DNA from: Geodermatophilus sabuli
GTDB taxonomy: Bacteria > Actinomycetota > Actinomycetes > Mycobacteriales > Geodermatophilaceae
Length of the DNA: 64,000 nucleotides
Reading direction: 5' to 3'
Assembly: GCF_010686765.1 (NCBI RefSeq)
Contig: NZ_JAAGWF010000029.1
Location: 1-64,000 of the forward strand
Positions 56,463 through 61,725 of the stretch are shown here, in pieces. The notes beneath the pieces were generated by a model, which saw only the letters and a program-made list of their open reading frames with translations, ran no database searches and had not been told where the DNA came from. Each line of letters begins with the position of its first letter. Within the stretch, counting starts at the first letter, position 1. A program made the position numbers and the translations under genes.

Positions 56463-56493
56463 GGGCGACGGACGAGTCGGCCTGTACGCCGGG
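56463..56493 (+). repeat. attL: orphan copy of the rnpB 3' end
   Basis: These 31 bases are identical to 61311-61341 and include 27 bases of the rnpB 3' end (P1 strand and the start of the conserved region). Bases on either side differ between copies, which defines the repeat edges. Confidence 0.9.
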
Positions 56494-56499
56494 AACCGT

Positions 56500-56514
56500 G
56501 ACGGCTTATGTGAC
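56500..56514 (+). repeat. Half-site-like copy next to attL
   Basis: GACGGCTTATGTGAC resembles the second half-site of repeat unit R3 (GACGGCTTGAGGGAC), 12 of 15 bases. It suggests that the cassette array begins right at attL. Confidence 0.4.
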
Positions 56515-56573
56515 CGTCGTTGGTCATCGTTGAATCGCCGCTTGAGCAGCGGTCATGCCGTTGGCGGCATGCG

Positions 56574-56633
56574 ACCACTGCTGGCTGTTTGCGGCCCACC
56601 TGCGGACTCTGTGCGGACTGAGGGCCGCTACAA
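56574..56633 (+). pseudogene. Remnant of a tyrosine integrase 3' end
   Basis: Bases 56601-56621 match 61254-61274, the last codons of the resident integrase, at 20 of 21 positions, and encode A-D-S-V-R-T-E versus A-D-S-V-R-T-D. The upstream stretch also resembles the integrase codons for the residues before it. No other part of an integrase survives here. It implies a second, related integrase once stood near attL. Confidence 0.55.
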
Positions 56634-56656
56634 GGCGACCGATCGCTGCCCGCCGC

Positions 56657-56684
56657 GTGTCTCTGAAGGCGGCCTCAGGGACGC
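56657..56684 (+). repeat. Array repeat R1
   Basis: GTCTCTGA and TCAGGGAC form an imperfect stem (7 of 8) around a 6-8 nt loop. It matches the second half-site type (AGGCGGCCTCAGGGAC). It is the first unit of the series of seven at roughly 260-470 bp intervals. Confidence 0.6.
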
Positions 56685-56712
56685 CCGTGTCCACGGGGCG
56701 ACCGCTCGGGGA

Positions 56713-56904
56713 CTACGGGGCGGCCCTCGGATTCCGGCCCACTGCCTTGCGGCGCTCGTGAGCGACGCTGGCGACTTGCGCGGCGGCGAGGAGGGCAGCA
56801 GAGACCGCCGTCCACCAGACACCCATGATGGCACTGGCCAGGGCAATCACGACGAAGACAGCGATCAACCCCAGACGGACTGGACTCTGCCACGACCGCT
56901 GCAC
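56713..56904 (-). CDS. Cassette protein a: two-helix membrane protein, 63 aa
   Basis: From GTG 56904 the peptide has two membrane helices (L-G-L-I-A-V-F-V-V-I-A-L-A and W-W-T-A-V-S-A-A-L-L-A-A-A) joined by a tight turn, then a basic tail H-E-R-R-K-A-V-G-R. Both ends should face the cytoplasm by the positive-inside rule. Lies alone between R1 and R2, on the strand opposite to the repeat orientation. Unknown function. Confidence 0.6.
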   Translation of the reverse strand: MQRSWQSPVRLGLIAVFVVIALASAIMGVWWTAVSAALLAAAQVASVAHERRKAVGRNPRAAP

Positions 56905-56982
56905 GCCTCGGAGGCTAGGGGACTTGGGCCAGAGTTGGCTGGATGGCAGGGCCGGGCCCACCCGGTCGGGGGCGATCTTCGG

Positions 56983-57047
56983 GTGTCTCTGAGTGGGCCG
57001 CTCAGGGACACGGGCCGGCTGACCTCGAAGGTGGCTTTGGGGACGCC
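56983..57047 (+). repeat. Array repeat R2 (full unit)
   Basis: GTGTCTCTGAG pairs with CTCAGGGACAC (10 of 11) around TGGGCCG; a second half-site AGGTGGCTTTGGGGAC follows about 20 bp on. This is the clearest full unit and serves as the type copy. Confidence 0.75.
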
Positions 57048-57134
57048 TCCACATGCCGCAGGCGCGTTCACCCGTTCAGTGGATGCTTCGTTATCCGGTC
57101 GGCGTCGGAGTCGACGGGGCCCATCCTTAGCGGC

Positions 57135-57335
57135 GTGAGCGAGCGGACTACCTGGTCGGTCGTCACCGCAGCACTGATGATCGGCTGGGCCGTTGCAGTC
57201 GCGCTGCTCTTGGTCGCGTTCACGGACTGGTCAAGCAACACAAAGGTGCTAGTCGCGGCCATCGTCTCGGGTCCGGGAGCGGTGGTAATCCTCTGGCTCC
57301 GAAGGAAGCGGCTGCCGGAGTCGCCTACGCGCTGA
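57135..57335 (+). CDS. Cassette protein b: two-helix membrane protein, 66 aa
   Basis: GTG 57135 opens a 66-aa peptide with helices A-A-L-M-I-G-W-A-V-A-V-A-L-L-L-V and V-L-V-A-A-I-V-S-G-P-G-A-V-V, linked by D-W-S-S-N-T-K, and ending L-R-R-K-R-L. Its stop lies 4 bp before R3. Same topology as its neighbours but no obvious sequence similarity to them. Confidence 0.6.
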   Translation: MSERTTWSVVTAALMIGWAVAVALLLVAFTDWSSNTKVLVAAIVSGPGAVVILWLRRKRLPESPTR

Positions 57336-57338
57336 CCC

Positions 57339-57405
57339 GTCCCTAGGTGGGCCGCTCAGTGACATCTCGGCCGACGGCTGACTGTGAAGACGGCTTGAGG
57401 GACAC
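57339..57405 (+). repeat. Array repeat R3 (full unit)
   Basis: GGTGGGCCGCTCAGTGACA (first half-site) and AGACGGCTTGAGGGACAC (second) with CGGCCGACGGCTGAC between them. It aligns along its whole length of about 65 bp with R2. Confidence 0.72.
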
Positions 57406-57408
57406 GGC

Positions 57409-57657
57409 GTGACTGGTTTCAACGACGTGTTCGTCCGTACCGTCCACCGCATGGAGGGGACTGAGACGTCAATGCGCTGGCGCACCCGGCTCGGCTTCTA
57501 TGTTCTCCTTGCCCTGGTGTGGGCGGTCCTGGCCATCGCGAATTTCAGCCGCGATGCCACCGGCATGGGGTGGGCATGGGTAGCCCTGGCTGGTGCGAGT
57601 GCGTCGCTTGCCGTCTTCAGTTGGACGCGGCTGCGGCGCAACGACCGTGTCTCATAG
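57409..57657 (+). CDS. Cassette protein c: two-helix membrane protein, up to 82 aa
   Basis: The frame opens at 57409; ATGs at 57451 and 57472 are alternative starts, the last giving a 61-aa peptide M-R-W-R-T-R-L-G-F. Helices: Y-V-L-L-A-L-V-W-A-V-L-A-I-A and W-A-W-V-A-L-A-G-A-S-A-S-L-A-V-F, then a basic tail T-R-L-R-R-N-D-R. The stop codon is part of repeat R4. Unknown function. Confidence 0.6.
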   Translation: MTGFNDVFVRTVHRMEGTETSMRWRTRLGFYVLLALVWAVLAIANFSRDATGMGWAWVALAGASASLAVFSWTRLRRNDRVS

Positions 57658-57673
57658 TGGGCCGCTTAGGGAC
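57648..57673 (+). repeat. Array repeat R4
   Basis: GTCTCATAGTGGGCCGCTTAGGGAC: same core as R2 and R3 (TAGTGGGCCGCTTAGGGAC), but the second half-site is not recognisable. It overlaps the stop of gene c. Confidence 0.68.
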
Positions 57674-57884
57674 TAGGAGAGCCCCGATTCTCTCGTTCTA
57701 GCGCCCGCAAGGCGGCGCCCACCAACAAGCCAACAGCAACGGCGCCTCCGTAGCCCTGCCCATCGAAGAGCCAGTCCCATGACGCAGCCGCAATAGCCAG
57801 CACGAGCATGATGGCGATCTGAGGTCGCTTTGACGTCACCGCCGCAGTCTGTGACGCGAGCGACTGCCGCACCATGCGCCTCAT
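57666..57884 (-). CDS. Cassette protein d: two-helix membrane protein, 72 aa
   Basis: Helices I-A-I-M-L-V-L-A-I-A-A-A-S-W-D-W and G-A-V-A-V-G-L-L-V-G-A-A-L-R-A-L with D-G-Q-G-Y between; short charged tail. A second ATG at 57875 preceded by GAGG may be the true start. Reads toward R4, ending within 8 bp of its core; opposite strand to repeats. Confidence 0.55.
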   Translation of the reverse strand: MRRMVRQSLASQTAAVTSKRPQIAIMLVLAIAAASWDWLFDGQGYGGAVAVGLLVGAALRALERENRGSPSP

Positions 57885-57903
57885 CCAAAGGGGTCTCGAC
57901 CGG

Positions 57904-57965
57904 TGTCACCTAGTGGGCCGCTTGGGGGCAACCGGCCGCCTCGACGTGAGGGAGGCTCTAGGAAC
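57904..57965 (+). repeat. Array repeat R5 (full unit)
   Basis: TGTCACCTAGTGGGCCGCTTGGGGGCA followed by ACCGGCCGCC and a worn second half-site GAGGGAGGCTCTAGGAAC. Aligns with R2/R3 throughout. Confidence 0.65.
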
Positions 57966-57968
57966 AGC

Positions 57969-58238
57969 TCAGCCAGTCGGCGCTCGGTGGTCGCGCCCAG
58001 GGTCATCGCAAGTCGCGGCTTGCTCTCGCCGCTGGCGCCGACGACCGATCACCCCTGCCGCGAGTATCACGGCCCAGCTGATCGCCGTCGCGGCCCTGAT
58101 TGCAATGTCGAGGCTGGATCGGTCTTCGGCGAGGACATCTCTGACCAGCAGGCCGATGGTGCCGACGACGAGCACCGCGAGCAGAACTTGGATGCCTGGG
58201 TTAGTGGCGAATCCAGTACTCAGACTCCGCTTGCCCAT
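57969..58238 (-). CDS. Cassette protein e: two-helix membrane protein, 89 aa
   Basis: Helices V-L-L-A-V-L-V-V-G-T-I-G-L-L-V and A-T-A-I-S-W-A-V-I-L-A-A-G-V-I joined by an acidic loop (D-V-L-A-E-D-R-S-S-L-D), then G-R-R-R-Q-R-R-E and a polar tail that includes one Cys. ATG 58238. Lies between R5 and R6, reverse to the repeats. Confidence 0.6.
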   Translation of the reverse strand: MGKRSLSTGFATNPGIQVLLAVLVVGTIGLLVRDVLAEDRSSLDIAIRAATAISWAVILAAGVIGRRRQRREQAATCDDPGRDHRAPTG

Positions 58239-58332
58239 GCGGCCAGCCTAGGAGTCGAAGGCGCGGCGACGTGCCGGGGACCGGGCGCTCACCACAGTGT
58301 GTGCGGTTCCGGCTGTCTCTGGGACACCATCG

Positions 58333-58362
58333 TCATCTCACCCTTGGGCGGCTTAAGTGACA
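58333..58362 (+). repeat. Array repeat R6
   Basis: GTCATCTCACCCTTGGGCGGCTTAAGTGACA: diverged core with GGGCGGCTTAAGTGAC. A nearby CGAGGACGCC may be a worn second half-site. Confidence 0.5.
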
Positions 58363-58483
58363 TTCGTGCGCGAGGACGCCTGGCGCGCCCCGGGGATACG
58401 CGCTCCGTCGTTCACTCGTCTGGTGGACGCTTTTCCCTCGGACTGGCCGTGAGTTGCCCGTCCTCTGTCGGCTGGCCAAAGGT

Positions 58484-58779
58484 GTGGACGTGGAAGACCC
58501 GCCAGACGGCGGCGCACGCCGCCCGTACGAGCAGCAGCCGATCGGATACGCGCGCAGGACCGCGCGGGAGCCAGGGCTTATGCGACAGCGCCGCTGGGAC
58601 CCTTCCTGCTCCGGCAATCGCTCTGGGGCCTCGTGGGGGGCGTGCTGGGTTACGCGCTCGGCGGCTGGGTCTGGGCGTTGATCATGTTCCTCGGCTGGGG
58701 TCTAGCGGCTCTGCCGGTCCGCTGGTGGCTTCGACGGAGGTACGCGAACCGGCACACGGAGCCTCCCGCCAAACCATAA
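58484..58779 (+). pseudogene. Cassette protein f, frameshifted two-helix membrane protein
   Basis: From GTG 58484 one frame gives V-D-V-E-D-P-P-D-G-G-A then A-R-E-P-G-L-M-R-Q-R-R-W-D. At about 58601 the sensible frame changes to F-L-L-R-Q-S-L-W-G-L-V-G-G-V-L-G-Y-A, a second helix W-A-L-I-M-F-L-G-W-G-L-A-A-L-P and a basic tail W-L-R-R-R-Y-A-N-R. One missing base near 58602 would restore a protein of about 98 aa. Either a true decay or a sequencing error. Confidence 0.55.
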
Positions 58780-58798
58780 AAACCTTGGGCGACCGTAC

Positions 58799-58825
58799 TG
58801 TCCCGTAGTGGGCCCCTTGAGGACA
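58799..58825 (+). repeat. Array repeat R7
   Basis: TGTCCCGTAGTGGGCCCCTTGAGGACA: TGTCC and GGACA form the outer stem and TAGTGGGCC the core. Last copy seen; after it the gene density changes. Confidence 0.6.
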
Positions 58826-59170
58826 GACACGGCTCCGTGGCGGACACTCAGCTGACCCAGCCGGCCCGGAACCCTGCGACCTGCTGGGAGATGCGGGCGG
58901 CCACGCCGGAGGTCTAGCCAGCCGATGGCATCGATAGGCGACACAACCCGTCCGAGTGACATAGCGTGATCAGCCGAACCCTGCCGAGGAGACGGCGCCA
59001 CAGTCAGTCTCGCATCCGGTTGATCACAGCCTCGGTGCGCTGCTGCGTTTCGCCTCAAAGGCTTCGCCGCAGAGCCGATAGAGGGAGAGAGTCTCGACGA
59101 TGGCGAGAGCGCTCCCATGACACAAGTCCGTGTCACCTCCAAAGTCTCACAACGACCAACAAGGGACAGA
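58826..59170. other. 345-bp stretch between the array and the DUF4352-like gene
   Basis: No supported gene. No further array repeat. It should contain the promoter of the gene at 59171; an in-frame upstream ATG at 59117 exists but has no ribosome site comparable to AGGGA before 59171. Confidence 0.5.
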
Positions 59171-59992
59171 ATGAGCGATCCGAACGGGGCGCCGGGACCA
59201 CAGCAACCTGCTGGCGGTGGGGAGCAGTGGGCCGCCCAGGCGGCAAACGGTCCACCCCCGCAGTGGCAGGCATCCGTGCCCGCTCCCTACCCCATGCCCC
59301 TTACGGGGGCGCCCTACCTGCCACAGTGGCAACCCGTACAGGCCGGACCTTCGAGCAAGCCATTCTACAAGCAGCCCCTGTTGTGGGTAGCGGTTGCCAT
59401 GGCACTGATCCTTTTTTTAGCGGGGATAGCGGTCGGTCGAGCCAGCATCGACGACGAGGCACCTGTCGCGGCCCCCGCAGAGGCGACTGCGGCCGCAACC
59501 TCGTCCGCGGAGGACAGCCGGTCGTCCACGCCTGCAACCAGCAGTTCCGCACGACCCACCCCGCCCACGTCCACGCCGCCTCCGCCGCCGCCTACGAATG
59601 GCGTCGGCTCAACGGTGGACTTTTCGGGGACCTTGGGAGATGGCAGCCCCGTCGCCGGGTCGGTCACTCTGAACGGTGTACGCCGAGTCAGCGTGGCGGA
59701 GGGGTATGCCTCTGAGGCGCCGACGCACGGCTCATGGCTGGTTATCGACGTGACCATTGCCAGCACGACCGGCACGGTCAACTACAACGCTCTCGATTGG
59801 GAAGCCGCGACGCCTCAGGGGCAGGTTGAGTCTTACGTCGGCGGGGTCCTCGACAATCAACTCCAGCATGGCGAGGTGCAGCCCGGCCGCATCGTTCGGG
59901 GCGAGCTCGCTTTCGACGTGCCAACTGGGCCTGCGTACATCGACTACTCGATCGGCTTCGAGGTGCTGACGACGTTCGAGGTCACCTCTTAA
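59171..59992 (+). CDS. Membrane-anchored protein with DUF4352-like outer domain
   Basis: This 273-aa protein has a Pro/Gln/Ala-rich cytoplasmic part (1-70), one membrane helix (about 73-93, W-V-A-V-A-M-A-L-I-L-F-L-A-G-I), a Ser/Thr/Pro linker with T-P-P-P-P-P-P-T-N and a C-terminal beta domain (about 140-273) with G-S-W-L-V-I-D-V-T-I and L-A-F-D-V-P, as in DUF4352/telokin-like extracellular domains. It is the largest cargo gene of the element. Could sense or bind something outside the cell or at the wall; function unknown. Confidence 0.7.
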   Translation: MSDPNGAPGPQQPAGGGEQWAAQAANGPPPQWQASVPAPYPMPLTGAPYLPQWQPVQAGPSSKPFYKQPLLWVAVAMALILFLAGIAVGRASIDDEAPVAAPAEATAAATSSAEDSRSSTPATSSSARPTPPTSTPPPPPPTNGVGSTVDFSGTLGDGSPVAGSVTLNGVRRVSVAEGYASEAPTHGSWLVIDVTIASTTGTVNYNALDWEAATPQGQVESYVGGVLDNQLQHGEVQPGRIVRGELAFDVPTGPAYIDYSIGFEVLTTFEVTS

Positions 59993-60300: not shown

Positions 60301-61287
60301 TCGCCGAGTTCCAGCCGCACGGTAGTGAGTGATCCCGCGGCCGGCCGGGTGACCGTGCGCGAGTACGCGGAGCAGTGGCGGACCACCCAGGTCCATCGAC
60401 CGACCACTGCCGCCCACGTCGAGACGATGCTGCGCCGCCACGTCTACCCCACCCTCGGGGACGAGCGGCTCGGCTCGGTGCTGCCCAGCGACGTCTAGTC
60501 CCTGATCAAGCAGCTGTCCCTCGACCTGGCGCCCGGGACAGTTGGAGTTCACCGCATCCTCGCGGGGATCTTCACGTCCGCCGTCCGCGACCGCCGGATC
60601 GTCGCCTCCCCGTGCGAGGGAACCAAGCTGCCGAGGATCCATCGCAGTCGCATCGAGCCGATGACGCTCGAGGCGGTCGAGGCGGTCGAGGCGGTCGAGG
60701 CGCTGACCGAAGCCTCACCGGAGAGATACCGGGCCCTGGTCACCCTCGCGGCGGGCACGGGGCTCCGGCAGGGCGAGGCCCTCGGGCTCACCGTCGACCG
60801 CATCGACTTCCTGCGCCGGCAGCTGACCGTCGACCGGCAGCTCGTCACCATGCCCGACCGAGCGCCCTACCTCGCGCCACCCAAGACGCAAGCCTCCGTC
60901 CGCGTGGTCCCGCTCCCCACGGTCGTCGTCGACGCCTTGGCGGTGCACCTCGCCACCTGGCCGGCCGCCGAGTTCGTCTTCACCACCGAACTCGGCGACC
61001 CGATCCGCCGCACGGCGTTCTCCGCAGCCGTCTGGCGACCGGCGGTACGGCGTGCCGGGCTCAGCGGCGTCACGATGCACTCGCTGCGGCACTTCTACGC
61101 GAGCCTGCTCATCCGGCACGGCGAATCGGTGAAGACCGTGCAGGCGCGGCTGGGTCACGCGAGCGCCGCCGAGACGCTCGACACCTACAGCCATCTATGG
61201 CCCGACTCGGACGACCGGACCAGGGCTGCCGTCGACTCCGTGTTCGGCCGAGTTGCGGACTCAGTGCGGACTGACGCCACCCACTGA
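60301..61287 (+). pseudogene. int: Tyrosine recombinase/phage integrase, broken
   Basis: The frame encodes the core-binding domain (V-T-V-R-E-Y-A-E-Q-W-R and L-R-R-H-V-Y-P-T-L-G-D) and the catalytic domain (T-G-L-R-Q-G-E-A, H-S-L-R-H-F-Y-A, L-G-H-A-S, Y-S-H), so Arg, His-x-x-Arg, His and Tyr are all present in the right order. An in-frame TAG at 60496-60498 interrupts it at S-D-V-stop-S-L-I-K, where relatives have Gln (CAG). The arm-binding domain is missing. A 9-bp unit is tandemly repeated at about 60669-60702 (E-A-V repeated). A shorter protein from ATG 60661 would hold only the catalytic part. Confidence 0.85.
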
Positions 61288-61310: not shown

Positions 61311-61341
61311 GGGCGACGGACGAGTCGGCCTGTACGCCGGG
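61311..61341 (+). repeat. attR: rnpB 3' end
   Basis: Identical to 56463-56493. Here the repeat is continuous with the intact rnpB gene. The integrase reading frame ends 23 bp before it. Confidence 0.9.
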
Positions 61342-61725
61342 TTCTGTCCACGGGCGCCTCGCGGCCTCCCGATGGGCGGTCATCCCTCTAGGCCTGCCGT
61401 TGCCGACAGGCTCGTGCGGTCCACCCGCAGGCATCGGGCGGGCAGCCCTCGAACGCCTGCGCAGGACGGCGGCGGACCGCCGTCCCTCTCGACCTTGCTC
61501 CGGGTGGGGTTTACCGAGCCACACCGGTCACCCGGTGCGCGGTGGTCTCTTACACCGCCGTTTCACCCTTACCAGCGGCGAGCCGCTGGCGGTCTGTTCT
61601 CTGTGGCACTGTCCCGCGGGTCACCCCGGGTCGCTGTTAACGACCACCCTGCCCTGTGGAGCCCGGACGTTCCTCGGCGACGGGGTCTCCCCCGCCGACG
61701 CGACCGCCCAGCCGACTCGTCCGTC
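61315..61725 (-). ncRNA. rnpB: RNase P RNA, class A
   Basis: On the minus strand the 5' part reads GAGGAACGTCCGGGCTCCAC then CAGGGCAGGGTGG, the middle GCCACAGAGAACAGACCGCC and GGTAAGGGTGAAACGG, and the 3' end ACAGAACCCGGCGTACAGG: all universal RNase P RNA segments. The 5' end GACGGACGAGTCGGC and 3' end GCCGACTCGTCCGTC are perfectly complementary (15 bp, P1 helix). About 411 nt, normal for actinobacteria. It matures tRNA 5' ends. It follows the PIG-L gene by some 20 bp on the same strand. Confidence 0.96.

Follow-up and report, generated by a model that had tools for sequence, protein, structure and literature searches.

A probable family-wide cassette-exchange system in Geodermatophilaceae, seen from an array of small genes at the rnpB locus of Geodermatophilus sabuli

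The stretch of Geodermatophilus sabuli DNA analyzed here (positions 1 to 64,000 of contig NZ_JAAGWF010000029.1, all 64,000 nucleotides of which are henceforth called the window) carries, from position 56657 to 58826, an array of seven repeated junctions (R1 to R7) between six short open reading frames (a to f). Three of the frames (b, c and f) are on the plus strand and three (a, d and e) on the minus strand. The repeats form one array of what is probably a cassette-exchange system, found across the family Geodermatophilaceae (Geodermatophilus, Blastococcus and Modestobacter). Coordinates are collected in Table 1; other genomes, contigs and loci bear our own handles (G, C and L numbers).

Two types of site can be recognized at the junctions. 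The first, RE, is a dyad of the form GTGTCCC-NN-AG-TGGGCCG-CT-NN-GGGACAC, with inverted arms and an asymmetric spacer, TGGGCCG; the second, LE, is related to it and has the form GTGTCCCTGA-AGGCGGC-YT-NN-GGGACAC, with the spacer AGGCGGC. Score thresholds for the sites were set by eye. A previous inspection of this DNA by its letters and open reading frames (the sequence-only reading) had counted seven copies of a single stem-loop repeat. Five of these are RE sites, found in a looser scan of the window with starts at 56983, 57337, 57647, 57903 and 58798; the count fails for R1, which is of the LE type, and for R6, in which the RE spacer is gone and an LE-like half remains. With up to 3 mismatches allowed, the RE core has 4 matches in the array, all on the plus strand, and 1 elsewhere in the home genome (C10:22999), where the reversed control pattern has none. 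At R2, R3 and R5, where two direct half-sites had been reported, a second, weaker dyad of LE type follows as a direct repeat 36-41 bp later; the division of the genes between the strands was also read correctly, as was the frameshift in one of them (f), whose relative in L073 has an open frame.

In named genomes the RE pattern is matched exactly in 28 stretches, all from Geodermatophilus, Blastococcus, Modestobacter or entries named Geodermatophilaceae bacterium, a count from which home-genome records may have been excluded. With up to 2 mismatches the RE core was matched in 87 of 146 relatives; among the matches listed, these are 67 of the 86 genomes inside the family and 20 of the 60 outside it, where 24 RE-core matches stand against 55 for the reversed control. 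An RE model built on sequence without structure (E<=0.001) finds matches in 68 of 96 family genomes and 8 of 12 genera, with up to 29 per genome, and the LE pattern is present in 58 of the 96, with 0 matches for its control. LE and RE occur together in 56 of these genomes, RE alone in 12, LE alone in 2, and neither in 26. Viral contigs contain no exact RE pattern, and only weak partial RE matches were obtained in plasmid records (10) and phage records (1). In the home genome 4 of the 6 model matches at E<=0.001 fall in the window array, which is not the genome-wide scatter of terminators named by the sequence-only reading as its counter-case.

The architecture of the arrays was studied in the window and 80 fetched stretches, that is, 81 sequences with 235 sites, six of the sequences (L118, L154-L157, L169) being siteless; the fetched loci were chosen from hit lists, and the fractions given describe these loci only. 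Neighboring sites less than 2 kb apart are on the same strand in 141 of 145 pairs. Of 62 runs of at least two RE sites, 45 are preceded on their own strand by an isolated LE; in the other runs the LE is inside in two (L139 and L060, whose head was caught by the RE profile too), downstream in one and on the opposite strand in one, the remainder having no LE. A separate listing of heads with an RE at most 4 kb downstream likewise numbers 62; heads are found at many loci, often after gene ends. By the 45 of 62 runs, the arrays display the integron-type arrangement in which the cassettes have a primary site at one end, with the qualification that an LE may be part of each unit. Next to RE sites an LE-like half comes after 66 of 131 internal and 30 of 91 last ones, with a background of about 5 percent in a control stretch. 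Sites flanking other single genes are found across the family. The best frames of 192 units are on the plus strand in 103 and on the minus strand in 88, with none in 1; these counts of direction, like those of length, are rough, as frames were chosen by a codon-position GC score and not by a gene finder, and an antisense frame was chosen for unit b of the window. The median G+C is 0.666 in the units vs 0.716 in the stretches.

Several candidate features of the array surroundings were tried and rejected. In the case of a common gene around the arrays, the largest group (23 loci) is made up of the rnpB/integrase loci and of shadow frames in GC-rich DNA; upstream of the heads the largest group covers 11 of 62 and is made of tyrosine recombinases of several families, many of the stretches extending less than 5 kb upstream. 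A reading of the head as a pre-existing terminator loses weight through the joint occurrence of LE and RE, and that of lone heads as empty platforms failed in the single case opened, G085, which has an RE-like site 421 bp downstream. A lone RE dyad (24/25 positions) was noticed at L168 8992-9020, on C10 of the home genome, 3' of a ThiF-domain gene that may be part of a defense locus, with no strong LE near.

Two kinds of comparison speak for exchange: the arrays of related genomes differ in their contents as a whole, the breaks falling within the dyads, and the same cassettes sit at different places. At the hutH locus both flanks are common to five genomes of one genus (88-95 percent), and whole cassettes differ in between. 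In the four genomes with a recognized LE, the left homology stops 25-29 bases after the first base of LE, that is, at its right edge; G030 has no recognized site, and its left homology ends at the matching place. Between the shared blocks lie 0.9 to 4.2 kb in which no pair of genomes has a blastn match at E<=1e-10, except for one 52-bp piece in G030. The right shared block begins at the last RE in G040/G053 and about 0.1 kb or more past it in the other pairs. These data, together with the common strand of the sites and the mixed strands of the genes, bear out the proposal of the sequence-only reading that one-orientation recombination sites delimit single-gene cassettes exchangeable in either direction, and the presence or absence of whole units in relatives for which it had called. 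The 52-bp piece lies in the variable segment of G030 (L215 2057-2108), where it duplicates the hutH 3' end and is perhaps the mark of another integrated element. In four more genomes (L177-L180) there is no site in the 3.7-4.0 kb after hutH, and the alignment reaches only the end of hutH: this spacer is too diverged to demonstrate an empty site. Sites were found in two of the ADH loci L181-L183 and in none of the treZ and paaX loci fetched (L184-L192).

Cassettes occurring at different places also part from their surroundings at the sites. The head cassette of L069 and an in-array cassette of L134 are 96.4 percent identical over 1037 bp; the identity begins at the LE spacer, and all sequence to the left differs. 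LE breaks of the same look were seen between L075 and L140 (82 percent) and between L074 and gene a of the window (77 percent). At RE breaks (L116/L153, 88 percent; L129/L144, 86 percent) the cassette is common up to the RE core and the linker differs. L072 contains a tandem cassette duplicate (71 percent), a relative of which is the first cassette in L144. In the 44 within-array alignments of two genomes, 36 of 88 ends fall on a site, compared with a null mean of 16 and maximum of 28 in 1000 trials; we take this excess only as support, because conserved sites draw alignments to their edges. In a separate observation, L069 and L173, from genomes of different genera (G073 and G156), share 11,001 bp at 100 percent identity, reflecting either recent transfer or assembly contamination.

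The stem-loop character ascribed to the repeats did not survive. Over 177 RE cores the arms pair at the frequency expected from independent columns; at the two variable arm positions 154 of 354 cases pair, compared with a permuted mean of 149.7 (P 0.32), and LE behaves alike, so that no base-pair covariation was found in the arms of either site. Since the arms do not covary, the stem-loop is not a selected feature of the sites, which are better described as dyads. The attC motif of integrons, RYYYAAC ... GTTRRRY, has a counterpart in 1 of 235 site contexts, vs 0.55 in shuffles. The pairing figures speak also against the idea that the repeats are transcription terminators or insulators with no role in mobility. 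The dyads do lie between genes, and the heads often follow gene ends; nevertheless, the sites keep one orientation regardless of gene direction, the two terminator-like matches near the window array are both off the sites, and gene content differs between genomes exactly at the sites. We attach next to no probability to this idea.

Like arms, a short conserved spacer, breaks within the dyad, and a fixed site direction combined with a free gene direction are what is expected of a tyrosine recombinase working on double-stranded sites. We consider it likely that these loci belong to a cassette-exchange system of the Geodermatophilaceae in which a tyrosine-type site-specific recombinase acts in trans on LE and RE. 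A cassette would consist of one small gene with an LE-type dyad on its left and an RE-type dyad on its right. The recombinase, most probably of the tyrosine type, would bind the paired arms and exchange strands in or beside the 6-7 bp spacer; recombination of like with like (LE x LE, RE x RE) would release the cassette as a circle, whose insertion would fix the orientation of the sites and leave the gene in either direction. The two like-with-like exchanges could suffice for the observed breaks.

Other routes to the same arrays are conceivable. The units might be non-autonomous transposons of small size whose two ends, LE and RE, are unlike, inserted side by side by a transposase in trans, as the distinct left and right end of each unit, the LE at the array head and the heads at many loci would suggest. 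We regard this as unlikely: the breaks fall within the dyads and one arm stays in place, duplication of the target was not noticed, the orientation is uniform in 141 of 145 pairs, and a Y1 transposase was found in 0 of 9 genomes, a search that left DDE and IS110-type transposases outside. Homologous recombination of the RecA type between sites with another role could shuffle genes with no dedicated enzyme, in keeping with sites that are repeated and alike and with the lack of an identified recombinase; it is a distinctly improbable account, as the sites are diverged and span 28-70 bp, and such a process has no need for a conserved asymmetric spacer or for two site types in fixed order.

The search for the enzyme gave the following picture. 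The integron integrase IntI (TIGR02249, curated cut-off) was found in 0 of 26 genus genomes, in a search confined to that one genus of the family, in accord with the absence of an integron integrase noted from the window; weaker tyrosine-recombinase matches are present in all 26. All six of the array genomes examined have PF00589 matches, from 4 to 29 in each and 70 altogether, of which 20 stretches were compared, including all four of G074, with no search for the L194 family elsewhere. In this comparison no recombinase family links all six genomes besides a pair resembling XerC and XerD, a name that is our own label. The idea that this pair moves the units, as XerC/XerD do in the dif modules of Acinetobacter, has in its favor the possible presence of the pair in all six genomes and the 11-6/7-11 geometry of the sites, which resembles dif. 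The arms are symmetric, on the other hand, and the best overlap with the dif sequence suggested for Frankia (PMC3025954) is 9 (RE) and 10 (LE) of 28 positions; furthermore our sites have one orientation, whereas dif modules alternate (PMC13141974). All in all this explanation appears very improbable.

A tyrosine recombinase gene lies at most 5 kb upstream of 11 of 62 heads, two of which share one gene, compared with about 1 expected from the PF00589 density: the arrays favor islands, a preference that does not name the enzyme. One integrase family is present in 23 of the 68 genomes with arrays and in 3 of the other 28. Among rejected candidates, the integrase family of L195/L199/L201/L209 is missing at E<=1e-30 from the array-rich genomes G157, G013, G022 and G062; serine recombinases are absent from the closed array-carrying genome G158 and present in the array-free G082 and G028. 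A partial RE (0.80 of positions) was noticed just 3' of an integrase gene at L199 962-990 (G040:C9).

The cassette genes that were compared are mostly under constraint. Of 32 frame pairs, 28 are main-frame pairs, 22 of which have ratios of nonsynonymous to synonymous substitution (dN/dS) of 0.18-0.44; four pairs antisense to another compared frame have values of 0.79-1.69. These ratios indicate purifying selection on most of the cassette genes compared, and the lack of selection on the small frames, the second counter-case of the sequence-only reading, was not seen. Relatives in other arrays exist for window genes a, b and f and, weakly, for d; for c and e the fetched loci contain none. No Pfam family matches the small window proteins above a cut-off. 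A Pfam scan of 145 of 170 chosen frames returned 93 families, none in more than 4 proteins, and PADLOC 9 families, with one or two proteins apiece; a few resemble defense genes. At least two hydrophobic stretches were found by a crude scan in 41 of 191 best frames; the two-helix proteins that had been proposed as the general cargo are one class only.

Some observations weigh against the exchange system with a tyrosine recombinase in trans. No recombinase was found for the sites, the XerC/XerD-like genes being the only ones possibly common to the six array genomes; no movement, circle or clean empty site was seen; the LE and RE spacers differ, and the first entry of a cassette into a new locus is left unexplained; half of the internal RE sites have no LE after them; and dN/dS is 0.51-0.97 in six of the 28 main-frame pairs.

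An rnpB-linked island of about 4.9 kb contains the window array; it was overlooked in the sequence-only reading together with its 31-bp duplication and the adjoining interrupted tyrosine integrase gene. The same rnpB-end core is present in two copies, with array sites in between, in L145 and L147; five further fetched loci matching parts of the island (L118, L154-L157) contain no sites. The integrase end of the island has relatives in many genus genomes. Beyond the cassette array the island also encodes a DUF4352 membrane-anchored protein (window 59117-59992, Pfam 4.1e-06).

Table 1. Sites, cassette genes and island features in the window
Feature	Position	Strand	Remarks
R1, LE dyad, array head	56657..56684	+	24/26 LE positions; spacer AGGCGGC
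Cassette gene a, 82 aa	56713..56961	-	relatives in L074, L137; dN/dS 0.52, 0.62
R2, RE dyad	56983..57011	+	24/25 RE positions
LE-type dyad 3' of R2	57019..57046	+	19/26 positions
Cassette gene b, 66 aa	57135..57335	+	relatives in L132, L148; dN/dS 0.41, 0.42
R3, RE dyad	57337..57365	+	20/25 positions
LE-type dyad 3' of R3	57378..57405	+	20/26 positions
Cassette gene c, 82 aa	57409..57657	+	open frame between sites; no relative in fetched loci
R4, RE dyad	57647..57675	+	22/25 positions
Cassette gene d, 72 aa	57666..57884	-	weak relative in L119 (43 percent; stop in L119 frame)
R5, RE dyad	57903..57931	+	22/25 positions
LE-type dyad 3' of R5	57940..57967	+	18/26 positions
Cassette gene e, 89 aa	57969..58238	-	open frame between sites; no relative in fetched loci
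R6, degenerate junction: spacerless RE followed by LE-like half	58313..58362	+	sequence reading; weak model match
Cassette gene f, frameshifted	58484..58779	+	L073 relative 82 percent in DNA, open frame there
R7, RE dyad, final site	58798..58826	+	21/25 positions
31-bp copy of rnpB 3' end, left island end	56463..56493		exact match to 61311-61341
Island tyrosine integrase gene, in-frame TAG at 60496-60498	60325..61287	+	pieces searched apart; Phage_integrase 3e-24, second piece
Other copy of 31-bp duplication, in rnpB 3' end	61311..61341		exact match to 56463-56493
rnpB (RNase P class A)	61317-61719	-	3' end copied at 56463-56493

These results can be compared with what is known of mobile gene arrays. 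Genomic islands with tyrosine integrases resemble the present case in the setting of the window array, where an island at rnpB includes a 31-bp duplication and an integrase gene, in the two relatives with a comparable rnpB arrangement and in the 11 of 62 heads near a tyrosine recombinase gene; they differ in that the head-adjacent integrases belong to several families, most heads have none near, and the island ends are unlike LE and RE. Elements of the IS200/IS605 type and repetitive extragenic palindromic (REP) elements likewise have short dyads at their left and right ends, but here the Y1 transposase is lacking in the 9 genomes searched and the arms show no covariation. Array-like capture of cassettes is known from integrons and from the dif modules of Acinetobacter. 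The latter, plasmid-borne (pdif) and dependent on XerC/XerD, also hold single genes or small groups between short-spacer sites like those of tyrosine recombinases, and are shuffled as modules; our arrays are chromosomal and family-wide, with symmetric arms, one site orientation (141/145 pairs) and no resemblance to dif, as the 9 and 10 of 28 positions in common with the suggested Frankia sequence indicate. With integrons, both chromosomal and CALIN (clusters of attC sites lacking integrases), they have in common that the cassettes of an array mostly carry one gene, with functions that are mixed or unknown, that the orientation of the sites is fixed, that one end has a distinct site (the LE head, like attI) and that the content differs between relatives. 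Integrons differ in having IntI, the attC motif and folded sites, for which the counts here are 0/26, 1/235 (0.55 in shuffles) and no covariation; in our case genes point in both directions, several arrays occur per genome, and many junctions have two dyads. The authors of IntegronFinder 2.0 report no complete integrons in Actinobacteria (PMC9024848).

In the literature searched, which left most subscription papers and preprints out of reach, we found no prior account of an LE/RE cassette system. This system appears to work in an integron-like way with sites of its own, fails the tests for IntI, attC and folded sites, and gives a defined recombinase to look for. With somewhat less assurance than for the exchange system as such, we favor the view that it is an independent counterpart of the integron for double-stranded sites, in which a tyrosine recombinase with LE and RE captures, duplicates and exchanges one-gene cassettes in either direction, across genera and on several platforms per genome. 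A system with sites of its own would mean more than one origin for array-like cassette capture, and would open a store of mostly uncharacterized small genes, a few of them resembling defense genes. The hosts are soil and rock bacteria of one actinobacterial family; the difference of the sites from those of integrons and the failure to find an integron enzyme point to a separate way of collecting and swapping genes.

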